This document shows, in pieces, positions 4,013-30,223 of a DNA stretch of 64,000 nucleotides; positions within the stretch are counted from its first letter, which is position 1; each line of letters starts with the position of its first letter. The stretch spans positions 1 through 64,000 of the forward strand of contig NZ_FORH01000010.1 in assembly GCF_900113955.1 (NCBI RefSeq), given 5' to 3'. A program made the position numbers and the translations under genes. Source of the stretch: Celeribacter neptunius (lineage in GTDB: Bacteria; Pseudomonadota; Alphaproteobacteria; Rhodobacterales; Rhodobacteraceae). The notes beneath the pieces were generated by a model. The model was not told where the DNA came from and did not search any database. It saw only the letters and a program-made list of their open reading frames with translations.

Positions 4013-5334
4013 CCGAAGGTACGGAAGACCTCGCCGCGCGCCTCGCGGCTCTCGAAGGCTCGACAGGCAAAGCGAAGGCAAGCAAGCGGCCTGCGCCGCT
4101 TGCCGCGATCCTTGGGGTCGTCGGCATCGCGGCAGCAGGCGGTCTGGCATGGGCTGCCCTGCAGCCGTCGGCAGAAGCGCCAATGGCGACCGCCGCGCCG
4201 GAAGAGTTCCAGAGCAGCGGCCCCGGATTCGGAGATCTGGCGCTGATTTCTGCCCCGGAGCCCAGCCAAGCCCCGCCTGCGGACACAGGTCCGAGCGAGT
4301 CGGAACTCGCGCTGATGGAAAGTCTTGCGACATTGAGAGCGGAACTCGAGGAACTGCGCGCAAGACCGGCCGAGGCCGCGGATAGCGGGGCGGAGCAGGC
4401 TATTGCCGACCTGACGGCGCAAATTGCCACCTTACAGGAAGCATCCGCCGAGGCGCAGCGTGCCCTCGAGCGGCAACTGACCGAGCGGGATCGCGAATTG
4501 AATCAGCTCCGCATGGACTTGGAGCTTGCACGGCTTGTACCACCAGAGCCGAGCTCATTGGGACCAAGTGAAGAAGAATTGCGGCTGGCCGAACTCGAAA
4601 GGCGGCGCGCAGCCGAAGCTGAGGCCCGCGCAGAGCGCATCGCGTCTCCTATGATCGCGTTCTCCGGGATGGGCGCGGGTGCGGATAGGGAGAATACGCT
4701 GGAAGCCGCGCGTCTGAATGCAGATGAAGCCTTTGTTCGTTCGGGCGCGCAACCAGCACAGGTGACACGTGCCGAAGTGATCGCGAACCCATCGAACACG
4801 GTTGTTCAAGGCACCATGATTCAGGCTGTGACAGAGACGGCCCTCGACAGCACACTGCCCGGCGCGATCCGCGCCATCGTCTCGGAAGACGTCCATTCTT
4901 TCGATGGAACGCGTATCCTGATCCCGCGCGGCGCGCGGCTGATCGGGCGCTACCGCTCCGATGTCGCACTTGCCCAATCGCGCGTCATGGTGGCATGGGA
5001 TCGGATCATCTTGCCCGATAATCAGACCGTGCAGATCAGCGCCTTCGGTGGAGACGAACTCGGCCGTACTGGCACCACCGGGTTTGTCGACACCCGTTTC
5101 GCGCAACGCTTCGGCTCCGCCGCGCTGATCTCCTTGATCGGCGCCTTGCCTGCGGCTGCAGCGGGTCAAATCGACAGCGAGGCGGCGGCCGATGTTGCGA
5201 GTGATGTCGGCAGCGACCTGCGCGATAGCACGCAAAGCGTGATGCAGGACTATCTGGCGATCCGGCCAGTGATACATGTCGATCAGGGTACACGGATCAC
5301 GGTCATGGTTGATCGTGACCTCGAGATTTTCTGA
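4009..5334 (+). CDS. virB10: VirB10 energy-transducing scaffold of the T4SS
   Basis: A 441-residue VirB10/TrbI protein. It has a short cytoplasmic N-terminus, a membrane helix at about 29-50, and a Pro/Ala-rich region. A long coiled coil follows at roughly 100-205, with many Glu, Leu and Arg. The conserved beta-barrel TrbI domain runs from about 255 to the end (IQAVTETALDSTLPG, HSFDGTRILIPRGARLIG, DQGTRITVMVDRDL). VirB10 spans both membranes and transmits ATPase-driven changes to the outer pore. The start chosen is the ATG overlapping the virB9 stop. An upstream in-frame start would lie inside virB9. Confidence 0.93.
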   Translation: MTEGTEDLAARLAALEGSTGKAKASKRPAPLAAILGVVGIAAAGGLAWAALQPSAEAPMATAAPEEFQSSGPGFGDLALISAPEPSQAPPADTGPSESELALMESLATLRAELEELRARPAEAADSGAEQAIADLTAQIATLQEASAEAQRALERQLTERDRELNQLRMDLELARLVPPEPSSLGPSEEELRLAELERRRAAEAEARAERIASPMIAFSGMGAGADRENTLEAARLNADEAFVRSGAQPAQVTRAEVIANPSNTVVQGTMIQAVTETALDSTLPGAIRAIVSEDVHSFDGTRILIPRGARLIGRYRSDVALAQSRVMVAWDRIILPDNQTVQISAFGGDELGRTGTTGFVDTRFAQRFGSAALISLIGALPAAAAGQIDSEAAADVASDVGSDLRDSTQSVMQDYLAIRPVIHVDQGTRITVMVDRDLEIF

Positions 5335-5335
5335 C

Positions 5336-6370
5336 ATGGCTGCAAGTTATCTGGAAGCGTCGCTCGACCGTTTCGGCCCCGAGGTCCTGCGCGACGACAC
5401 GATCGAGATCTGCATCAATCCCGACGGACAAGTCTGGGGCGAATTCCAGGGCGACCACTTCATGCGAGGTCTCGGCAGCCCGCTGAGCCCAACCGAGATC
5501 AAGGACCTCGGCAACCAGATTGCCTCCGCCGCCTCGACCACACTCAGCACCAAGAAGCCTATCGTCTCGGTCTCGATCCTATATCGAGATCGCCCGATCC
5601 GCGCGCAGGTGATCCAGCCGCCGGCAGTCGAGGGCGGGTTTTCGATATCACTGCGGTTTTTCTCCTCCCTGCCGCTAGAGGCGATCCGGCTCGGATTTCT
5701 CTATGGCAAGGAGCGCAGCCTCGAAGGCTTGCGCCGCGAACGTAACGCCGCACTGCGCGATGTGGTGACATCCGGCGACATCGGCGCCGCGCTGCGGTTT
5801 TGCGTCGAGAACAAGCTCAACATGATCGTCTCGGGTGGCACGTCGACCGGCAAGACGGTTGCGGCGCGCAAGATCCTTTCGCTGATTCCGCCCGAAGAGC
5901 GGATCATCACCATCGAGGAGGCGGCCGAGCTGCGCCCCGAGCAGCCCAATGCCGTGACGTTGATCGCGGACCGGGACACGGATGCCCGCAGTGCCGATGT
6001 GCTCTTGGCCTCAACGCTTCGCATGCGACCCGACCGGATTGTCCTAGGCGAAGTCCGCGGTCGCGAGGCGATGACGTTTCTCGAGGCAATCAACACCGGC
6101 CACGGTGGATCGCTGACTACGCTGCATGCCGAGACCCCACAACTTGCTGTTCGCCGCCTCGCCATCGCCGCCCTGAAAACCGATGTGCCGATGACCTATG
6201 CCGACATGATCGATTACATTGAGGGCTCGATCGACGTGATCATTCAGGCAGGCCGCCATGAAGGCGCGCGCGGGATCACCGAGTTCTTCCTCCCGGGTCA
6301 AACCACAGATTTGAACCTCGACACGGTCGACGGCAGAGGCAACAAGAGCCCCTCCGTTGCCGCTGAGTAA
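5336..6370 (+). CDS. virB11: VirB11 traffic ATPase
   Basis: A 344-residue hexameric secretion ATPase of the VirB11/PulE superfamily. Visible motifs are Walker A GGTSTGKT (167-174), the Asp/Glu box RIITIEEAAEL, Walker B-like RIVLGEVRG, and the His box NTGHGGSLTTLHAETP. It works at the cytoplasmic base of the channel with VirB4 and VirD4, switching between pilus biogenesis and DNA transfer. The ATG chosen lies 1 base after the virB10 stop. The stop is followed by a short leader and the next operon gene. Confidence 0.95.
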   Translation: MAASYLEASLDRFGPEVLRDDTIEICINPDGQVWGEFQGDHFMRGLGSPLSPTEIKDLGNQIASAASTTLSTKKPIVSVSILYRDRPIRAQVIQPPAVEGGFSISLRFFSSLPLEAIRLGFLYGKERSLEGLRRERNAALRDVVTSGDIGAALRFCVENKLNMIVSGGTSTGKTVAARKILSLIPPEERIITIEEAAELRPEQPNAVTLIADRDTDARSADVLLASTLRMRPDRIVLGEVRGREAMTFLEAINTGHGGSLTTLHAETPQLAVRRLAIAALKTDVPMTYADMIDYIEGSIDVIIQAGRHEGARGITEFFLPGQTTDLNLDTVDGRGNKSPSVAAE

Positions 6371-6386
6371 AAAAGGAACACCCCAG

Positions 6387-6806
6387 ATGCGAAAACCAAT
6401 TCTCGCACTCATGCTTGCCGCCTTGGCGGGCCCCCTTGTGGCGCAGACTTCGCCTCAGGTCTCAAGCGATCTCACGGTCGATATGTCGCCTCAACAGTAC
6501 CGGATCTGCAACGATCGTCCGGCGCGCCCGACCTGGATGGACGAAATCAATCCGCGTGAAGCCTACAAGGCGCTGACGTTGATGGACCTTTATGAACTTC
6601 GGGCATGGGAACAGATTGTCGAGACAGGCAACTGTGCTTGCGATGTCCGCTTCCCGTCCTGGGAAGATGCCTCTGAGGAATTCGATGAAAAGTACCTTCT
6701 GGACTCGGCTGCGGAACACACAACCGCGCAGCGGGACATCAGAAGGCAGCGGAATGATCTACGGTTGGCAGTTCAGGAAATCTGCGAAGCTCAGGGCAAC
6801 TGGTAA
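6387..6806 (+). CDS. Small exported protein within the virB operon, unknown function
   Basis: A 139-residue protein starting MRKPILALMLAALAGPLVAQ, a clear Sec signal peptide. The mature part is acidic and contains cysteines (RICND, NCACDVRFPSW, QEICEAQ). The ATG chosen is preceded by an AAAGGAAC ribosome site; an earlier in-frame start would remove the signal-like beginning. It ends on the first base of virB6, so it is cotranscribed with the T4SS. No known family was recognised. The paired cysteines and periplasmic fate suggest an accessory role in channel or pilus assembly, by inference from context only. Confidence 0.75.
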   Translation: MRKPILALMLAALAGPLVAQTSPQVSSDLTVDMSPQQYRICNDRPARPTWMDEINPREAYKALTLMDLYELRAWEQIVETGNCACDVRFPSWEDASEEFDEKYLLDSAAEHTTAQRDIRRQRNDLRLAVQEICEAQGNW

Positions 6807-7831
6807 TGGGCGTCGTCAGCTGGATGGTCGGAACCGCAGACGCGTTCCTTGTCGATGCGGCCGAGTCCCAGTTCGGGGCAGTGGCAAGCAATACCGGCAC
6901 GATCGTCCTGCTGATGGTTACCCTCTCTCTGATTGGCGTCTGCATCAACATGGCATTCCAGTTCCGCAGCATGGATGGGGCCAGCTTCTTCTGGTATCTC
7001 ATCAAGCTGACACTGATAGGCCTCTTCGCCTTCAACTGGGCCAATTTCAACGCGGTATCCAACGCTGTGATCGGGGGCCTCGACTATGTGGCGGGCGCGC
7101 TGGTGTCGTCCGTTGGCGGGGGTGGCGCAGGCGCAACCCATTTCGCAGGAGAGTTCGACAACCTGATCGAGCGCTTCGCGACATATCTGAACGCGATCGG
7201 CAGCAACCTGAACTGGATGACAGGCGCGATCCTGGGTGGGATCGGCCTGGTGCTCCTCAGCCTCCTTGGCTTCATGACCGGGATCGTCCTCATCTTCGCC
7301 AAGATGATGCTGACCCTGATGCTGGGCCTCGCACCGATCATGATCGCGCTGTCGCTCTTCGATGCAACCAAGGATTTCTTCCACAGATGGGTCTCGACGA
7401 CAGTCAGCTATGCCTTCTACCCCATCGTAATCGCAGCAATGTTCTCTACCGTCGTCGGCATGGCGAATTCGCTGCTAGCCCAGCTCGGTGATCCGAACTC
7501 GGCAACCAACATCGGATCGCTCGTGCCGTTCTTCGTCATGGTTTTCCTGGCCAAAGGATTTGTAGCAGCAACACCCCTGATCGTTCGCGGCATCTCGGGA
7601 AACCTAATGGTGGCGGCGCCACCGGCGATCGTCAGCGGGTCCGCAGGGGTACTGCGAGGGCTGGCTAACACATCTGGTGTCCAGGGCAGGGCGCGGATAG
7701 GGGCGCTCACGACGGGGGAGGCGATTGGACGTGGAACTGTACACGCTCCTGCTGCGGTAAAGAGCGCCGCGGCGACGGCGAGCGCGCAGGTGGTCAGGAT
7801 GGCGGAACGGGCAAAACGTTTGCGAGAGTAG
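6806..7831 (+). CDS. virB6: VirB6 polytopic inner-membrane channel protein
   Basis: A 341-residue TrbL/VirB6 family protein with several hydrophobic helices. Examples are TIVLLMVTLSLIGVCINMAF, FYPIVIAAMFSTVVGMA and the loop around LTLMLGLAPIMIALSLFD. A Gly-rich periplasmic loop (SSVGGGGAG) lies in the middle and the C-terminus is Ala/Arg-rich. VirB6 forms part of the inner-membrane translocation path. It is the last visible gene of the operon. The following DNA is a truncated AraC gene that does not belong to a T4SS. Confidence 0.9.
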   Translation: MGVVSWMVGTADAFLVDAAESQFGAVASNTGTIVLLMVTLSLIGVCINMAFQFRSMDGASFFWYLIKLTLIGLFAFNWANFNAVSNAVIGGLDYVAGALVSSVGGGGAGATHFAGEFDNLIERFATYLNAIGSNLNWMTGAILGGIGLVLLSLLGFMTGIVLIFAKMMLTLMLGLAPIMIALSLFDATKDFFHRWVSTTVSYAFYPIVIAAMFSTVVGMANSLLAQLGDPNSATNIGSLVPFFVMVFLAKGFVAATPLIVRGISGNLMVAAPPAIVSGSAGVLRGLANTSGVQGRARIGALTTGEAIGRGTVHAPAAVKSAAATASAQVVRMAERAKRLRE

Positions 7832-22967: not shown

Positions 22968-22996
22968 TGAGTTATAGAAAGGATATCTATAACTCA
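22968..22996 (+). promoter_or_regulatory. Palindromic operator over the fic start
   Basis: A perfect 11-base inverted repeat, TGAGTTATAGA and TCTATAACTCA, with 7 bases between the arms. It touches the fic ATG and contains the AAGGA ribosome site in the spacer. A TTGACT -35-like box lies at 22936. Binding of a repressor, perhaps the Fic protein's own C-terminal winged helix, would block transcription and translation. Confidence 0.7.
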
Positions 22997-24108
22997 TGGC
23001 TTGGAACTGGACGCTGCCTGATTGGCCGGATTTCCGGTATGACGCCTCCGCGCTGGAGCCGTTTGAGCAGACGTTCCTGCTGTCGTCCGGAGAAATCCTC
23101 GGCGCGGTCCATCATGTCAGCCAGCCGGAGCGCGAGCAACTCCGCATCGAACTGCTCAGCGAGGAAGCAATGCAGACGAGCGCCATCGAGGGTGAAATCC
23201 TCGACCGGCTCAGTGTCCAGTCTTCGTTGCGCCGCCATCTGGGCCTCGATCCGGACAGCTACCCTGCCAAACCGCGCGAACAGGGCGTCGCGGAAATGAT
23301 GGTCGACGTCTATTCCAGTTTTGCAGAGCCGCTGACCCATGAGACGCTGTACCGCTGGCATCGAATGCTCCTGTCCCATGACAGTCGGTTGGAAACCATC
23401 GGGGCCTACCGACAACACGCCGAGGCGATGCAAATCGTTTCCGGCCGCCTTGACCGGCCCACGATCCATTTCGAAGCGCCGCCCTCGGAGCGGGTCATGC
23501 CTGAGATGGAGCGATACGCGGATTGGTACAACAAGACCGGGCCGGGGGGAGCAGAGCCGCTTCCAGCGCTGACGCGCGCAGGGCTAAGCCACCTCTATTT
23601 CGAGAGCATCCACCCATTCGAAGACGGCAACGGACGCTTGGGTCGCGCCCTCGCTGAAAAGTCGCTGGCGCAGAATATTGGCCAGCCGACCCTCATCTCG
23701 CTCGCCTTCACCATCGAGAAGCAGCGCAAGGCATACTACGACCAGCTCGAGCAGCATCAAAAAACGCTCGATGTGACCGATTGGCTCGTCTGGTTCGCGG
23801 AAGTTGTCTTGAAAGCCCAACAGGCAACACTCGACCGCGTCGGCTTCTTCATCAGCAAGGCACACTTCTACGATCGTCACAGAGACCACTTGAACGAACG
23901 CCAGGCCAAGGCCATCGCTCGAATGTTGCGGGAAGGCCCTGGCGGTTTCAAAGGCGGCCTCAGCGCCGACAACTACCTCAAGATCACCGGAACCTCACGC
24001 GCGACCGCGACCCGCGATCTGCAGGATCTGGTCGAGAAGGGCGTGCTCGCTCGAACCGGCGAGCGGAGGCACACGCGATACTGGTTGAAACTCGACTGGA
24101 GTGAATAA
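22996..24108 (+). CDS. fic: Fic-domain AMP transferase with N-terminal DUF4172-type region
   Basis: A 370-residue Fic protein. The active-site loop HPFEDGNGRLGR is at 206-217, and an inhibitory motif TSAIEG (61-66) matches the (S/T)xxxE(G/N) helix that blocks ATP in class II Fic enzymes. The C-terminal 80 residues look like a winged helix (ADNYLKITGTSRATATRDLQ, then LVEKGVLARTG). Fic enzymes transfer AMP or other groups to hydroxyl side chains of targets. The intact inhibitory motif means it is normally self-restrained. The winged helix and the palindrome over its start suggest autoregulation. It stands alone, with no antitoxin gene visible. Confidence 0.93.
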   Translation: MAWNWTLPDWPDFRYDASALEPFEQTFLLSSGEILGAVHHVSQPEREQLRIELLSEEAMQTSAIEGEILDRLSVQSSLRRHLGLDPDSYPAKPREQGVAEMMVDVYSSFAEPLTHETLYRWHRMLLSHDSRLETIGAYRQHAEAMQIVSGRLDRPTIHFEAPPSERVMPEMERYADWYNKTGPGGAEPLPALTRAGLSHLYFESIHPFEDGNGRLGRALAEKSLAQNIGQPTLISLAFTIEKQRKAYYDQLEQHQKTLDVTDWLVWFAEVVLKAQQATLDRVGFFISKAHFYDRHRDHLNERQAKAIARMLREGPGGFKGGLSADNYLKITGTSRATATRDLQDLVEKGVLARTGERRHTRYWLKLDWSE

Positions 24109-24828: not shown

Positions 24829-25515
24829 TCACAGCTTGGGGCGATCCTGTTCTGGAACCTCCCACGGGTCTTCCAGGGTGACGATGCCGTAGCGGACGCC
24901 GTCGTGGCCGGCCTTCGGAAGAAAGGTGATCATCCCGATATCCAGGATCATCCCCTTGTCGTGCATGTGCTGCTGTCGGAAGTGACCGAAGTGCATGAGA
25001 TATCCGAGGCCCTCCAACTCGAGACACAGCGCAGAGATCGCGGCCGAATACTCAAGCCGCTGGCCGGCGCTGCTCATATCCCAGATCCCGTCCAGATCGG
25101 TCATCCAGTCCGAAATCGCGGCAGTCAGTTCGAGGGCATTGCCGGCCTCCACCGCGCCGGCGTTGATCAGGAGCCCGTGCCATTCGCGGTTACGGGAATA
25201 GAAGTCGTTGGGCTTCCTGATGGGGGACGTGGGCACAAGCACCGTCTTTTTCAGCGCGCGCTCCATTTCTTCCTGCTGGCGCTTCTCCTCCTCGGGGGTG
25301 GGCTTGGAGAAGACCTTGATGTCGAACCCGAGGCCGCGCGCGAGGCTTCGCAAGGTCTGCACCTCGGGCACGTGCCGTCCGCTTTCCACCTTCTGGATCG
25401 TGCGGACCGTCAACCCGGAGGTGTCCGCAAGGTTCTCCTGGGTTAGAGAGAACATCTTGCGGATATACTTGCACTGGTTGGCGATATACTCGGCGTCTCG
25501 TTCCATCGTTTCCAT
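24829..25515 (-). CDS. XRE-family helix-turn-helix protein at the end of the Ubl operon
   Basis: A 228-residue protein. An N-terminal Cro/C1-type helix-turn-helix (about 12-66: MFSLTQENLADTSGLTVRTI followed by QKVESGRHVPEVQTLRSLAR) precedes a charged linker and a C-terminal domain (NALELTAAISDWMTDLDGIW, ILDIGMITFLP) that I do not recognise. The ATG at 25515 has GGAG 7 bases upstream; earlier in-frame codons lack this. It starts 82 bases after the DUF6527-type gene on the same strand, so it is probably in the operon and may regulate it. Confidence 0.75.
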   Translation of the reverse strand: METMERDAEYIANQCKYIRKMFSLTQENLADTSGLTVRTIQKVESGRHVPEVQTLRSLARGLGFDIKVFSKPTPEEEKRQQEEMERALKKTVLVPTSPIRKPNDFYSRNREWHGLLINAGAVEAGNALELTAAISDWMTDLDGIWDMSSAGQRLEYSAAISALCLELEGLGYLMHFGHFRQQHMHDKGMILDIGMITFLPKAGHDGVRYGIVTLEDPWEVPEQDRPKL

Positions 25516-25597
25516 CAGATCACTCCATGTTGCTGACAGGAATAGCATGGCACGCCGGCTCTGGGGGGGCCCCGAACGCAACCCGAACGCTCGACTG

Positions 25598-25957
25598 TTA
25601 TCCCGCCCCGGGGCCGCTGTCCTTGCACCAGTCAATCCGCCCCTGCCGGATCCAGAAGTGACACCGGCATTCGTTCGTCTGGCGGACCGACGGCGAGATG
25701 GTCGGGCGCCTCAGCCAGTCTGACATGGCCGTCCACCTGGGCCTCCGGTTCTTGCTGAGGGACAGTTTGATGGTCTCGCCGCACCCACCAGGGCAGTGGA
25801 AGCAGGCCCATTTGTCGACGCCATCGCGCACGATGGTCATCTCCCCCGGCACGATCTGATCCGGCGTCGGGTGTGTGGGTGTTACCCTGGCAAGCAGATC
25901 ACTTCGTGGAATGAGGCGGAAGAGCTCGAGGCTCTTCCGCAGAATGTCGATCATCAT
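25598..25957 (-). CDS. DUF6527-type cysteine-rich protein of the Ubl operon
   Basis: A 119-residue protein with pattern CFHCPGGCGETIKLSLS (C52, C55, C59), then TISPSV and NECRCHFWIRQGRIDWC (C97, C99, H100, C111). It matches the family I know as DUF6527, which recurs in bacterial ubiquitin-like conjugation operons. The Cys/His set suggests zinc binding. The conserved SPS and CHFWI region suggests an active or binding site, and a processing protease role has been suggested for such proteins as far as I recall. It starts 5 bases after the E1 stop. Confidence 0.8.
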   Translation of the reverse strand: MMIDILRKSLELFRLIPRSDLLARVTPTHPTPDQIVPGEMTIVRDGVDKWACFHCPGGCGETIKLSLSKNRRPRWTAMSDWLRRPTISPSVRQTNECRCHFWIRQGRIDWCKDSGPGAG

Positions 25958-25962
25958 CCCGC

Positions 25963-27372
25963 TCACCCGATGCGATCCAGGAACGGATCGATGTCGCCGA
26001 GACCCCAGTATTCCTCGCTGCCGCAGACCGGGCAGTCGGACCGGGGCTGCGCCGCCTGCGAACGCTCTAAACCCTTGTCGAGCTTGCGATAGCGTTGCCA
26101 TGTCCATCCACCGCCGCCGCGGAAGTCGACGAGACCGGCAAGAAGTTCGTTCACTGCCATGGTGGCGGCCTCGGAGGTGAAGGTCACGACGGCCGGCGCG
26201 GGATTACCTCCGCCGCGGACGTAGGCTTCGGTCTTCTGCCGTTCATATTCGGCGGGGTCCGATCGCTGGAGGTCCTCCTCGCGAGCCCTGACGCGATCGA
26301 CTGTGCCGCGGCAGCCGTGGCACGCCGACGTGGGAAACAGCACGCTGACCCGCGCGGCCATCTCGAGGAGGCCGGGCTCACCATCGTCACGGGGCATGAG
26401 GACCAGCCCGACATCGATGACCGGGATCAGGTAGAAGTGCGCCACGCGGTTCAGGTAGAGGCGCCCGGCGTGATCGTCCGTGCATCCGAAGATGACGTCG
26501 CAGGATTTCAGCGCGTCACGGATATGCGGCGCATCCACCCAGCCGTTCATCGACCGGATCTCGACGTCGAGGCCCATCATCGTCACCTCGCGCGCCATGA
26601 CGTCGACCTTGGGCACCGCGTTTTCGGCATCCTTTCGGGTCGCGCCATACAGGCGGTTCAGGTTGGAATGCTCGACCACGTCATCGTCGATGACCAAGAT
26701 GCGCCCCACGCCGAGGCGAGCGAGGAGATGGACCACCGGGCTGCCGGTGCCGCCGCAGCCGACCACGGCAACGGAGAGCTGTTTGAGGAGTCCGTTGACC
26801 TCCGGCCCGAAGGCCAGTGCCTGCCGGGCCAAGGCTTCCGACGGGGTCGGCACGTCGGTCGACTGGATCTCGAGCCGAATGCCGATGACGGTCACGCGGT
26901 GACAGGGCAAGGGTGCCATGTCGTCTTCCCAGACCCGTGCCCGGTAGAGGCCGTCACCGACTTGCACGACGCTCACCAAGCGTGTCCCCTCGCCGTTACG
27001 GTTCCGAGCCATGGTGAAGAGGTCGCGCTCGTTGCGATCGTCCTGGTCCGAGAAACCGTCGAAGCCTCCCGGGTGACTATGAACGATCGCCGGCACCAGG
27101 CCTTCCTCCTTGGCCCGGCGACAGAGCTGGGCGAAGGAGTTGGTATTCCAGGTGACGTGCTTGTCGCTGGCATCGACGCGGTCCTCCTGCGGGATCGCGA
27201 TGACCTCGTAGGAGGTGTAACGGGTCCGCGGCTCGAGGTCCCAGGGGTCCTGCGCGATCTCGCTTTTGCCGAGCAGCATGTAGGCGGCGCCCTCGTGCCC
27301 ACGGGGGTGCGCGAGCAGCGCCTGCAGCTTGTCGCGGTGACGGGCGTGGAGGGTGATGTCGCTGCGCTTCAT
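25963..27372 (-). CDS. JAB (JAMM) peptidase fused to E1-like ThiF adenylyltransferase
   Basis: A 469-residue fusion. Residues 1-155 form a JAB domain: E27, HSHPGG (98-103), S108 and D111 give the metal site of a deubiquitinase-like peptidase. Residues about 185-430 form an E1/ThiF domain: GCGGTGS (205-211), LVIDDDVV, SNLNRLYG with R240, K255, and GCTDD. Two CxxC pairs (351/354, 447/450) would bind structural zinc. The crossover loop region (386-400) has no cysteine, so a thioester on the E1 is unlikely. The enzyme should adenylate the Ubl C-terminus and trim or remove it. The start overlaps the E2 stop by 4 bases. Confidence 0.93.
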   Translation of the reverse strand: MKRSDITLHARHRDKLQALLAHPRGHEGAAYMLLGKSEIAQDPWDLEPRTRYTSYEVIAIPQEDRVDASDKHVTWNTNSFAQLCRRAKEEGLVPAIVHSHPGGFDGFSDQDDRNERDLFTMARNRNGEGTRLVSVVQVGDGLYRARVWEDDMAPLPCHRVTVIGIRLEIQSTDVPTPSEALARQALAFGPEVNGLLKQLSVAVVGCGGTGSPVVHLLARLGVGRILVIDDDVVEHSNLNRLYGATRKDAENAVPKVDVMAREVTMMGLDVEIRSMNGWVDAPHIRDALKSCDVIFGCTDDHAGRLYLNRVAHFYLIPVIDVGLVLMPRDDGEPGLLEMAARVSVLFPTSACHGCRGTVDRVRAREEDLQRSDPAEYERQKTEAYVRGGGNPAPAVVTFTSEAATMAVNELLAGLVDFRGGGGWTWQRYRKLDKGLERSQAAQPRSDCPVCGSEEYWGLGDIDPFLDRIG

Positions 27373-27749
27373 GCCGCCACCTCCAGGGCCTCTTCGACCC
27401 GCTTCAGCATGGTCCAGATGCCGTCGGTGCCGGGACGCCACTGGTTGTTATGGCGAGACCAGCGCTGCCAGTTCTGGCCATCAAAGGCCTGGCGTGCCTG
27501 CGTGCAGCGGGGCTCACGCTGGCCGGCAAGGAGCTTCAGATGCGGCACGGCGTAGAACATGTCGGGGGCGACCTCGGGATACGAGGGCGGCAGCAGGATC
27601 AGGATATCCACCTGGGCGACCTGATACTTGCCTTCCGGCAGCGTGATCCCGGTGAGGATCACGCCCTTCTTTCCGCCTTCGATGACCTCGCGAACGGTGA
27701 TGCCGCGACCCTCGAGGTAGAGGCGATCCTGACGGGGGAGGAGGCTCAT
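27369..27749 (-). CDS. E2-like conjugating protein (prokaryotic E2 family E type)
   Basis: A 126-residue compact UBC-like protein. The strand and loop VDILILLPPSYPEVAPDMFY matches the E2 core. The later NWQRWSRHNNQWRPGTDGIW segment is the hallmark of the prokaryotic E2 family E. In an eye alignment with classical E2s, the catalytic cysteine position falls at or near S98 in WSRH. The only cysteine, C82, lies earlier in the loop. This raises the possibility of serine-based transfer. It overlaps both Ubl and E1 genes by 4 bases, so stoichiometry is coupled. Confidence 0.88.
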   Translation of the reverse strand: MSLLPRQDRLYLEGRGITVREVIEGGKKGVILTGITLPEGKYQVAQVDILILLPPSYPEVAPDMFYAVPHLKLLAGQREPRCTQARQAFDGQNWQRWSRHNNQWRPGTDGIWTMLKRVEEALEVAA

Positions 27750-28285
27750 GCCGCACCCCCTTCCGTGGTCTGGGGCACGCCGGTGAAGAAGTGCTCCAGG
27801 CCAGCATCCGCGAGGCAGATCAGATCGGTGTCGCCGACCAGGATGTCATCCTTGCCGGGGATCACCTGCCAGACGGCGAACTTCGCGGGATCGACCCCGG
27901 CCAGCTTCTTGAGCACGCGCCCGCTGATGACCTTGTGGCCCCACTCGAGGCGTTTGCCATCGATGTCGAAGCGGAAGGATTCCGCGCTCGGGAAGACCAG
28001 GAAGCGCTCGACCTGGCCAGGGCGCAGATCCGTGGTTTCCTCGAGGCGCAGTTCTTCAAGTTCACCGTTGCGCAGCACCTGGAACACGAGGTGTTCCTCG
28101 GCCTTACGGAAGTCGGCCCCCTCGATGATCTGGCGGCCGGTGGGCGTCGGATCGTCGATGACGGCGTCGGTGAACTTCAGGTCGTGGTCGCCGACTTTGA
28201 CCTTGTAGGGTCCGTGGTCGCGGGGCTTGCGGCCGGCCTTCAGGGCGGCCTGGAGATCTTCGATTTCCATCTGTTCGGTAGTCAT
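27746..28285 (-). CDS. Tandem ubiquitin-like protein (multiubiquitin family)
   Basis: A 179-residue protein made of two beta-grasp repeats. Domain 1 is about 27-98 (DDPTPTGRQIIEGADF, then LRLEETTDLRPGQVERFLVF). Domain 2 is about 103-168 (WGHKVISGRVLKKLAGVDPAKF and DTDLICLADAGLEHFFTG). Both match the multiubiquitin family. The C-terminus is TTEGGAA, so a Gly-Gly (176-177) would be exposed after removal of two alanines. The ATG has AAGGA upstream and is the first gene of the operon. It is the presumed modifier attached to target proteins by the E1 and E2. Confidence 0.9.
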   Translation of the reverse strand: MTTEQMEIEDLQAALKAGRKPRDHGPYKVKVGDHDLKFTDAVIDDPTPTGRQIIEGADFRKAEEHLVFQVLRNGELEELRLEETTDLRPGQVERFLVFPSAESFRFDIDGKRLEWGHKVISGRVLKKLAGVDPAKFAVWQVIPGKDDILVGDTDLICLADAGLEHFFTGVPQTTEGGAA

Positions 28286-28447
28286 GGCAGCAAATCCTTT
28301 TCTTGTCTGCTCGACGCCCGCAGCAGGCGCCATCAATGGTGTATGCGCGGCACAAGAGTGTTCGCGTTCGTAGCCTTAATATTTTTTTGAATTTTCTTGA
28401 CTGCGATAGGTCGCTGCGTGCGCATATGTATATTAAGAGCAGCGAAG
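28286..28447. promoter_or_regulatory. Divergent promoter region between Ubl operon and sigma gene
   Basis: A 162-base region driving two opposite operons. On the + strand, an AT-rich stretch (CTTAATATTTTTTTGAATT) precedes a TTGACT box near 28396, with TATGTATATTA some 20 bases later. These are imperfect promoter elements. Shared control of both operons is inferred from the arrangement. Confidence 0.45.
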
Positions 28448-29038
28448 ATGGCGATTGGCATGGCGAAAGACACACCCCAAGAGTTCAATACCCTCAAGGA
28501 ATTCACTGACGAACTGGACCTTCTCTTCCGCGATGATGTCGCACTCAGAAAGCTCCTTCAGAAGGCGCGTAACTGGTGCATTCGGAACAACCGAGTCGGC
28601 GACGAGGAGGAGGTCCTTCAAGAGGCCGTCATGAGGGTGATGAAAAGTGAGATCACCGGGACACGCCAATGGCCCAAAGGTGTTGCACTTATGGACTTTC
28701 TCTCCGGCGTGATGCGGAGCATTGCATCGGAGCGGCCTAAGATCGGGTTTCGCAAGAACGCCGACAAAGACATGGAGGCCGCGAAGGACATTGCCTCGTC
28801 GTGCAACCAAGAAGGGCAGCTCTTCGAGAAAGAATTTATGGCCCGCTTCATGGCGCTCTTCGAGGGTGATGACGATTCACAGCTATACCTCCTGGCTCTG
28901 GAGGAAGGGCAATCGAAGTCCGAGATCATGACGGGCCTCGACTGGAATGAAAGGGAATACAACACGGTGGTGCAGCGGGTCAAAAGGACACGCAACGCAC
29001 ACCCGGAAATGAAAGAGATGCTCAATGGCGAAGGATAA
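28448..29038 (+). CDS. Sigma-70-like factor (ECF-type), divergent from the Ubl operon
   Basis: A protein of about 196 residues with sigma-like architecture. A region 2-like part (CIRNNRVGDEEEVLQEAVMR, then MDFLSGVMRSIASERP) is followed by a region 4-like part (LLALEEGQSKSEIMTGLDWN, then VVQRVKRTRNA). Such truncated sigma-like proteins occur next to ImmA/IrrE peptidase genes and Ubl operons. It may direct RNA polymerase to local promoters or have diverged into a regulator. The start at 28448 or 28460 is undecided. It overlaps the next gene by 14 bases. Confidence 0.7.
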   Translation: MAIGMAKDTPQEFNTLKEFTDELDLLFRDDVALRKLLQKARNWCIRNNRVGDEEEVLQEAVMRVMKSEITGTRQWPKGVALMDFLSGVMRSIASERPKIGFRKNADKDMEAAKDIASSCNQEGQLFEKEFMARFMALFEGDDDSQLYLLALEEGQSKSEIMTGLDWNEREYNTVVQRVKRTRNAHPEMKEMLNGEG

Positions 29039-29438
29039 GAAAACCTTTCAAGATCGCCTGGCGGAGGAAATCGACGAAGCTATCACGAACGCTTCAGACG
29101 AGGATATTCGAAAAGAGGCTGAAGAGGCCGGGGAGGACATTGCTGCTTTCGGTGATCGCATGAGAGCTTGGCTGGAGACCGCGAAAGACGAGGTCGCCGA
29201 AATGGCAATGAAGGAAGCCAAGGCCGCAGCTGAGCAAGATCGTGCAACGCGCGACCAAAATGTCGTCTCCATGGCTCAACGCAGGCCTGCGAACAGGCCT
29301 GGCAACTTCATGCCCGATACGGTGGCCGCTCGTCATGGAAAGAAGCTGTCGGAGAGAGACAGAAAAGGGATCGAGAAGGACTTGGAAGACCTGTTCGACG
29401 ATGACGCTTGGCCTGACAAAAACGGCGATGAAGAATGA
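29025..29438 (+). CDS. Charged helical protein between sigma-like and ImmA genes
   Basis: A 137-residue hydrophilic protein. It is rich in Glu, Asp, Lys and Ala with long predicted helices (LAEEIDEAITNASDEDIRKE and onward) and ends in an acidic tail (DLEDLFDDDAWPDKNGDEE). It contains no recognisable domain. Coupled overlaps with both neighbours (14 and 4 bases) mean it is made with them. By position it could be an anti-sigma-type factor or the substrate of the peptidase that follows. Both are inference. Confidence 0.7.
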   Translation: MAKDKKTFQDRLAEEIDEAITNASDEDIRKEAEEAGEDIAAFGDRMRAWLETAKDEVAEMAMKEAKAAAEQDRATRDQNVVSMAQRRPANRPGNFMPDTVAARHGKKLSERDRKGIEKDLEDLFDDDAWPDKNGDEE

Positions 29439-30223
29439 CTCATTCTCCGCGTCGTGCTGAGGAGATCCTCCAGGCTTTGCGCCTGAAGCGACCGGAAGAC
29501 ATCAACCTTGAAGCCATTGCCTGGCTTCAAGGTGCCAAGGTTGACTACCGGGAAATGGACGGATGTGAGGCTTGCATCCATGGTCGAGCTGACGTCGGCC
29601 GCGCGATAATCGCCGTGAATGACGCGCATGGAAATCTACGGCGCCAGAGGTTCTCCCTCGCACACGAACTGGGGCACTGGGAATGGCACAGGGGAGAACA
29701 TCTGTTTTGTGCAAAAGAGGATATCGGGGGTAGCAAGGGGCGGGAACGAGGAATGTCCCGAGAGAAGGGCGCCAACCGGTTCGCCTCAGAGCTGTTGATG
29801 CCGGAGTTCATGCTCAAGAGCGCTCTGAATGACTTCAAGAAATTCGATATGCGCACCGTCCGTCTTCTTTCGGACGCCTTTTCTGTCAGCAAGACGGCCA
29901 TGGCGTATCGCTTGGTGGATCTGGATTTCGAGCCGAGCCTCCTGGCCTCTTACAGCCGCGGCGGCCTCAACTGGTTCAAGAGATCGAAGAGCGTCGGGGA
30001 GCGATGGTTCCTGCGTCGAACACTTGACCCGCAGAGCAACGCTCACGATATCCTGCACAAGGGAGCCCGGGACGACATCTCGCTGTCTCTTATGGACGCG
30101 GACACCTGGTTCGATACAGAGGGCGCCGATCGGTATGAGCTTGCTGAGCAGTCGTTCCGTGTGGGTGACGACGAGGTCATGACCTTGCTGGTCCTGAAGA
30201 GCGAATACATGATGGCGCGATAA
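29435..30223 (+). CDS. ImmA/IrrE-type zinc metallopeptidase
   Basis: A 262-residue ImmA/IrrE-family protein. The zinc motif is in RQRFSLAHELGHWEW (H77, E78, H81) and the third ligand is in the helix GANRFASELLMPEF (E119). Family members cleave helix-turn-helix repressors (ImmA in ICEBs1, IrrE/DdrO in Deinococcus). The natural targets here would be the XRE protein at 24829, the charged protein or the sigma-like factor. The C-terminal 100 residues are unrecognised. It closes the three-gene operon divergent from the Ubl genes. Confidence 0.9.
   Translation: MTHSPRRAEEILQALRLKRPEDINLEAIAWLQGAKVDYREMDGCEACIHGRADVGRAIIAVNDAHGNLRRQRFSLAHELGHWEWHRGEHLFCAKEDIGGSKGRERGMSREKGANRFASELLMPEFMLKSALNDFKKFDMRTVRLLSDAFSVSKTAMAYRLVDLDFEPSLLASYSRGGLNWFKRSKSVGERWFLRRTLDPQSNAHDILHKGARDDISLSLMDADTWFDTEGADRYELAEQSFRVGDDEVMTLLVLKSEYMMAR

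Follow-up and report, generated by a model that had tools for sequence, protein, structure and literature searches.

How bacteria hold lethal immune operons off until they are needed is an open question, and the controllers of such operons named in the published accounts drawn on here act, as far as those accounts go, by repression. The question arises at a locus of Celeribacter neptunius (assembly GCF_900113955.1, contig NZ_FORH01000010.1, positions 1 to 64,000; this whole stretch of 64,000 nucleotides is called the window below), where an operon for ubiquitin-like (Ubl) conjugation on the minus strand is faced by a divergent trio of genes, SIG, ANTI and CapP (28460-30223, plus strand), which overlap head to tail. 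An original prediction had described the Ubl operon with an attached XRE gene; the trio was absent from it. We think it probable that the locus is a Bub/type-6e Ubl conjugation operon of plasmid type that is driven by the divergent sigma-factor cassette, a reading that draws on the gene families, on conservation of the trio and on matched promoters in many relatives, all of them read from sequence. The cassette, not the Ubl operon, is the notable part of the locus, and it is a variant of the CapP-type immune controller. Loci and genomes used for comparison are given by L and G numbers.

Components of the divergent trio

SIG (192 aa, 28460-29038, plus strand) was assigned as an ECF-type (extracytoplasmic function) sigma factor from a family profile run against the PDB, an AlphaFold2 model and a Foldseek search. 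The 63-sequence SIG profile (A4) matched the ECF sigma factors SigH (E value of 1.1e-7) and AlgU (1.1e-4), and its positions 40-185 aligned to residues 48-194 of SigH, an alignment that takes in regions 2 and 4. A profile of eight sequences, comprising the window and seven relatives, matched a SigH/SigE chimera (1.1e-3) and SigH (3.3e-3). The AlphaFold2 model had a mean predicted confidence (pLDDT) of 88.1, and the Foldseek list was headed by sigma factors, the best at an E value of 8e-3. By these comparisons SIG is related to the ECF sigma factors. That it starts transcription with core RNA polymerase is a prediction, which the matched promoters described below support indirectly.

Across the order, the SIG seed profile matched 44 of 292 genomes at 1e-5, six of them strongly (3.2e-41 or better, the window's genome included). 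Five weak matches were chosen for testing, and all carried Sigma70_r2 and Sigma70_r4_2 over cut-off. Ubl genes adjoined SIG in five of the six strong genomes (G000, G082, G152, G221 and G158), and the strong match of the sixth (G290) lay at a contig start. One locus, L137, matched all three seed profiles (SIG, 1.7e-46; ANTI, 6.1e-31; CapP, 5.3e-100), and its SIG is named "sigma-70 family RNA polymerase sigma factor" in the record.

ANTI (137 aa, 29025-29438, plus strand) lies between SIG and CapP, overlaps both and is the predicted anti-sigma. Its AlphaFold2 model (pLDDT 81.6) is helical, with a long helix at residues 39-84, a linker containing the motif TLAARxG and a last helix. This motif (residues 99-105, TVAARHG in the window; 29319-29339, plus strand) was singled out by its conservation as a candidate protease site: A101 was present in 62 and R103 in 63 of the 64 sequences. 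ANTI also gave a weak PADLOC match to capH (9.6e-6, 24.6 bits), and a weak similarity of this kind was seen in three of five other loci scanned; the helix-turn-helix (HTH) partner in Jiella scored 90.2 bits to capH versus the 24.6 of the window ANTI. No HTH family was found in ANTI with Pfam. With this weak score, the helical model and the missing Pfam HTH, an ordinary HTH CapH was rejected as its identity.

The third gene (262 aa, 29435-30223, plus strand) encodes a CapP-type M78 (ImmA/IrrE) metalloprotease with the motif HELGH (Peptidase_M78, 1.1e-16; PADLOC capP, 3e-59). A CapP profile (A3) matched the solved CapP structure 7t5t at 2.7e-13. A search of a phage collection gave no CapP match at 1e-10.

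Matched divergent promoters

A search for paired elements between the two transcription units proposed a sigma-dependent promoter for each. That of the Ubl operon, GAACGCGA followed after 13 nt by GCGCATA (28342-28369, minus strand), lies just outside the 5' untranslated region that the window has in common with Celeribacter and P. marcusii, and that of SIG is GACTGCGA followed after 13 nt by GCGCATA (28399-28426, plus strand). A composite pattern, built post hoc from these two sites, had three occurrences in the 4.4-Mb genome, the two sites themselves among them.

The same arrangement was sought in 65 other loci, with the window excluded and three near-duplicates dropped. The consensus TGTCC-N16-20-GCAT was found 39 times in 26,604 bp upstream of SIG versus 33 times in 923,090 bp elsewhere in these loci, counts that measure enrichment and are no independent test, as the consensus was derived from the same regions. 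It was present in both directions in 13 loci, in the SIG direction only in 6 and in the operon direction only in 3. An earlier scan for symmetric motifs was dominated by palindromes, and a constrained pair test was used instead. In this consensus-free test, the best matched divergent pair was compared with 100 mononucleotide shuffles; of 67 loci, 25 reached p<=0.01 and 34 reached p<=0.05. The two sides of a locus also resembled each other more than the sides of different loci: the mean score of a locus's own pair was 14.35 of 18, versus 12.06 for permuted pairs (standard deviation 0.13; none of 5000 permutations reached it; 65 loci). When the other loci were given more freedom the values were 14.35 and 12.98 (0 of 5000), and with GC matching they were 14.36 and 13.29 (61 loci); all of these permutation statistics ignore kinship among the loci. 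Agreement of the two sides within a locus is what is predicted if one sigma factor reads both promoters.

Distribution of the trio and the operons that it faces

Genome contigs were scanned with the profile of the trio CapP, and at least 590 stretches and at least 208 relatives were matched, of which the best 80 by CapP similarity were kept. Seed profiles made without these 80 loci placed SIG upstream of CapP in 70 of them and detected ANTI in 67, with the two together in 63; SIG and ANTI overlapped or abutted in 60 of 64, and for 3 of the 10 loci lacking SIG a contig end is less than 1 kb away. Wider profiles, to which many of the 80 loci had themselves contributed, gave 73 for SIG, 74 for ANTI and 72 for both. 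By record title, the trio-type CapP loci belong to Alpha-, Beta- and Gammaproteobacteria, to Geobacter-like and Desulfobacterales metagenome-assembled genomes (MAGs), to Acidobacteriota, Planctomycetota and Verrucomicrobia, and to a Saprospiraceae MAG.

The divergent operon contained a protein of the ThiF/E1 cluster in 20 of the 80 loci (among them L047 and L092, which nearly duplicate the window), and the three members tested were all ThiF (L052, L103 and L125). A nine-member divergent cluster was represented by two tested proteins, both CD-NTases (L048 and L054). The other divergent proteins tested were SAVED (L053), TRIP13 (L058), AAA (L114), a Cap2-like E1-E2 (L110), E2-E1-JAB (L066), a Tle1-like phospholipase (L070), Beta_protein (L083) and DUF2188 plus DUF3892 (L064); that of L107 had no Pfam match and that of L095 no PADLOC match. 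On a plasmid relative in Roseivivax marinus, the trio side faces a nucleotidyltransferase and a SAVED gene. Judged by these families, the trio also faces operons of CBASS (cyclic-oligonucleotide-based antiphage signaling), of TRIP13 type and of the E2-E1-JAB kind.

Some further arrangements were seen. In L066, L073, L080, L102 and L105, the trio faces a protein of 383-405 aa and then a protein of the E2-E1-JAB cluster; neither Pfam nor PADLOC gave a match for the first divergent protein of L066. Small genes of DUF2188/DUF3892 type repeatedly face the trio (L064, L069, L071, L011 and others; Pfam was run on L064 only), and it is possible that these are new defense components. On Sagittula plasmid p8 (L011), the trio lies beside an MvaI/BcnI restriction-modification set.

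Apparent exchange of regulators among Ubl loci

To the view from the CapP side can be added that from the Ubl side, for which 21 plasmid stretches were opened (L003-L011 and L134-L145), 17 of them with Ubl genes. Of these, L008 had a SIG without recognized ANTI or CapP, L144 a gene pair that includes a winged-HTH protein, and L138 and L140 a helicase upstream; in L139 and L145 other genes or nothing was annotated. At L008, a Mesorhizobium Ubl locus (4815-7321), the gene in the place of ANTI did not match the ANTI profile, and the place of CapP is taken by a 478-aa protein without a Pfam family, perhaps a different protease. In megablast searches, the matches to Celeribacter (97.4%) and P. marcusii (88.3%) both ended at query position 5832, which is about 28331 in the window, 46 bp upstream of the Ubl ATG and just downstream of the proposed promoter. 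Beyond this end, identity to the Celeribacter SIG falls to about 28% over 156 residues. Because both matches stop at the same point and the SIG beyond it has diverged, the promoter and the trio appear to have been exchanged as a unit.

A proposed switch and its alternatives

Together, these features can be arranged as a switch. In the unstressed cell, ANTI would bind SIG and keep it inactive. Single-stranded DNA (ssDNA) arising from DNA damage or phage infection would activate CapP, and the activated protease would cut ANTI near the TLAAR motif. The freed SIG would guide RNA polymerase to the two matched divergent promoters, so that the Ubl operon and, by positive feedback, the cassette itself would be turned on. 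JAB-E1 would then activate the C-terminal Gly of Ubl, the Cys-less E2 (Ser98/His100) would pass Ubl to its putative targets, and the JAB domain would trim or remove it; an effect against phage is presumed. The available descriptions have CapP activated by ssDNA and cleaving CapH, and PprI likewise activated by ssDNA and cleaving DdrO, a cut that depends on a conserved Arg of the cleaved loop. By analogy with these two pairs, ANTI should be cut by CapP near AxR, which would release SIG.

This reading has to be set against several observations that weigh on the other side. None of seven single SIG sequences (window, L003, L006, L008, L009, L011 and L137) passed a Pfam sigma cut-off, the best trio SIG scoring 18.4 bits versus a cut-off of 24; the window SIG had no Pfam family over cut-off at all, and its Foldseek search gave no match at E<=0.001. 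ANTI resembled no solved anti-sigma in sequence or fold: its best PDB matches by sequence (0.033 and 0.0077) were both unrelated proteins, and no match by fold was convincing. Taken by itself, the window's promoter pair fell short of significance (p=0.21), 14 of 64 other loci matched it as well as or better than its own pair, and 43 of the 65 loci lacked the exact consensus in either direction. The -35 boxes of the window differ from TGTCCG; since L006 and L048, which have close SIG relatives, keep TGTCCG boxes, the -35 element of the window clade seems to have drifted. The figure of 70 of 80 loci overstates the frequency of SIG, as the selection favors trio-type CapPs and the loci are related. 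By the rule used, 18 of the 80 loci had no divergent operon, many others had nothing but small or unassigned genes there, and 53 divergent proteins were singletons in clustering. Only 4 of the 17 plasmid Ubl loci carried the trio by profile (L003, L004, L007 and L137), and 7 were instead annotated with an HTH protein plus an ImmA/IrrE or DUF955 protein (L005, L134, L135, where the pair is on the operon's strand, L136, L141, L142 and L143).

The missing anti-sigma relative of ANTI would be explained if the wiring differed, with CapP acting on SIG, or with ANTI serving as an adaptor or co-activator. We consider this unlikely, given that ANTI is weakly capH-like in the window and in three of the five other loci, that its AxR motif is near-invariant and that two Bradyrhizobium SIGs, in opened stretches with no annotated ImmA/IrrE, have partners of 87-96 aa that resemble the ANTI N terminus and lack the motif. 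Such short, motif-less partners in the apparent absence of the protease support the scheme in which CapP cuts ANTI. At both Bradyrhizobium plasmid loci (L009 and L010), where no CapP is annotated nearby, a gene of the rRNA adenine methyltransferase family adjoins SIG and its short partner.

More doubtful still is a reading of SIG as a sigma-fold DNA-binding repressor, for which the repeated blocks would be operators and CapP would relieve repression. It would agree with the failure of single SIG sequences to reach the Pfam sigma cut-offs and with the CapH+CapP, CapW and CapK+CapS controllers, which the sources, in the portions available, describe as repressor systems. It does not fit the match of the SIG profile to ECF sigma factors, nor the form of the elements, which consist of two blocks at -35/-10-like spacing, point at each gene, and are alike within a locus and different between loci. 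We retain the activating sigma factor as the preferred interpretation.

The cassette resembles CapH+CapP in that an M78 protease of CapP type is encoded divergently from an immune operon, but where that controller has the HTH repressor CapH the cassette has an ECF-like sigma and a helical middle protein that is only weakly capH-like. The proposed logic, release of a sigma factor through proteolysis of its anti-sigma, also resembles that described, in the text available, for CalpL/CalpT/CalpS of type III CRISPR systems, where the protease is signal activated. There the protease is the SAVED-Lon protein CalpL and the signal is cyclic tetra-adenylate (cA4), whereas the window encodes a Peptidase_M78 and the signal is presumed to be ssDNA.

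On this basis we lean toward a further class of immune-operon controller: an exchangeable cassette that combines an ECF sigma, an anti-sigma and an ssDNA-activated CapP and that, through a cognate promoter pair of its own and with built-in positive feedback, works by activation and not by derepression on Bub, CBASS and other defense operons in Proteobacteria and several other phyla. Literature searches returned no description of a sigma/anti-sigma/M78 trio beside immune operons, although Lau 2022 on CapH+CapP, Ye 2026 and Gong 2025 lay outside their scope and may mention it. If the proposal is true, a sigma-based switch would provide amplification as well as positive feedback, would, through another type of protease, parallel the Calp cascade linked to CRISPR, and should allow a single cassette with its promoter to make a reporter damage inducible. 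SIG-ANTI-CapP would also be a marker for finding adjoining new defense genes.

The Ubl operon belongs to a known class

Four genes make up the operon, all on the minus strand. They encode a Ubl protein of 179 aa with two Multi_ubiq repeats and the C terminus TTEGGAA (27746-28285; PF14452 in two stretches, 4.1e-28), a family-E E2 of 126 aa (Prok-E2_E; 27369-27749; PF14462, 6e-49), a JAB-E1 fusion of 469 aa (25963-27372; ThiF, 4.8e-39; Prok-JAB, 1.9e-7) and a DUF6527 protein of 119 aa that is a probable zinc binder (25598-25957; PF20137, 1.8e-24). ATGA overlaps join Ubl to E2 and E2 to E1, and 5 bp separate E1 from the DUF6527 gene. The original prediction had proposed these four proteins and the XRE gene, in overlapping or tightly spaced genes, and suggested a profile search as a check; run over Pfam, this matched Multi_ubiq, Prok-E2_E, ThiF, JAB and DUF6527, and the XRE gene also found its family. 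Within the window's own genome, the only Multi_ubiq matches in the Pfam search were the two repeats of the operon Ubl. A class-wide search placed E2_E over cut-off in 3 of 385 genomes, the window's own among them, which is too few for a survey.

The operon has the known type 6e architecture; it is not new and is ordinary for its kind. According to the part of Iyer 2006 consulted, row 6e comprises a polyUbl, an inactive E2/RWD-like domain, a JAB fused to E1 and a metal-binding protein, the JAB usually at the N terminus of E1. The window has the corresponding tandem Ubl, an E2-like protein without a catalytic Cys, the JAB-E1 fusion and the metal-binding protein, and like type 6e/Bub systems it is in a mobile setting; the core is alike, and what sets the window apart is its controller, the sigma trio. 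This agrees with the earlier placement among the systems of Iyer, Burroughs and Aravind, distinct from Bil, whereas the fusion order singled out at that time is simply the usual type 6e layout in that source. The operon also fits Bub, and type 6e and Bub are presumably the same set; covalent conjugation is predicted. The accessible portion of one survey counts 544 Bub operons, of which 219 have CapW or CapH+CapP and 59 have CapK+CapS (EMBO J 2026, PMC13373217). As described in the material at hand, BilABCD likewise combines tandem Ubl, E2, E1 and JAB in a single operon, but as four separate genes. In the window there is no separate JAB protein corresponding to BilC, the JAB being fused to E1, and DUF6527 is added. 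The Bil E2 has a catalytic Cys, and no conserved Cys was found in the E2 family of the window. The JAB-E1 fusion and this E2 led us to reject membership in Bil.

A sulfur-carrier or cofactor pathway in place of protein conjugation is very improbable. The best NCBIfam matches of the E1 are ThiF/MoeB-like, although all those shown fall far below cut-off; the operon contains E2 and JAB domains and a tandem Ubl, and Iyer 2006, in the part available, sets such operons apart from those linked to metabolic enzymes.

Conserved residues and likely chemistry

Alignments were made with L047, L092, L061 and short duplicate loci left out; the near-identical L042, L043, L046, L049 and L003 were kept, and the conservation counts are therefore not independent. 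Among 22 aligned E2 sequences, Ser98 and His100 were invariant and no Cys was conserved, the best Cys column reaching 12 of 22, which makes a Cys-thioester relay through the window's E2 not likely. Conjugation in Bub systems reportedly proceeds via an oxyester. The 22 aligned E1 fusions all kept E27, H98, H100, S108 and D111 of the JAB domain, which we take to be the intact JAMM site. C297, within FGCTDD, was the sole invariant E1 Cys, and Cys 351, 354, 447 and 450 were kept in 13-15 of the 22. In the DUF6527 protein, C55, C59, C97 and H100, together with S90, were invariant in 27 of 27 sequences.

Sixteen Ubl C termini were compared, including that of the window: five ended exactly in TTEG and four in TTEGGA(A/E), because of which TTEG is likely to be the active end, with activation likely at a C-terminal Gly. 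Four others, from loci of DUF6791 or similar type, did not end in Gly. Ubl proteins not ending in Gly were those of L056, L062, L067 and L075, and in L052 and L103 the E1 carries DUF6791 where JAB would be.

Plasmid setting and neighboring genes

The suggestion that the operon is plasmid borne fared well as to origin. Complete roseobacter plasmids match up to 65% of the window's first 24.9 kb at about 94%, which makes a plasmid origin of the stretch likely, and the contig may itself be a plasmid. In L047 (Pseudooceanicola sediminis), CapP and the five genes from Ubl to XRE were all 100% identical to those of the window, and this locus may come from the same genome or a very near one. In L003 (6478-7749), on Celeribacter plasmid pP73C, E2 and JAB-E1 are separated by an IS256 transposase.

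The XRE-type HTH protein (228 aa from ATG; 24829-25515, minus strand; HTH_3, 1.2e-9) is encoded 82 bp downstream of the DUF6527 gene. By tblastn, the near-identical copies L043, L047 and L092 all have it, and no match was obtained in L042, L003, L004, L005, L007, L045 or L137. Because it is found in close copies only, it is a neighbor and not a conserved operon member, and the earlier emphasis on it as a partner of the operon falls away. That this HTH_3 protein near the operon's 3' end, kept in the three close copies, regulates the Ubl operon is hardly credible with that limited distribution, and the idea was rejected. Farther downstream, a Fic/DUF4172 protein (22996-24108, plus strand; PADLOC SoFic, 1.7e-42) lies in a stretch common to several roseobacter plasmids.

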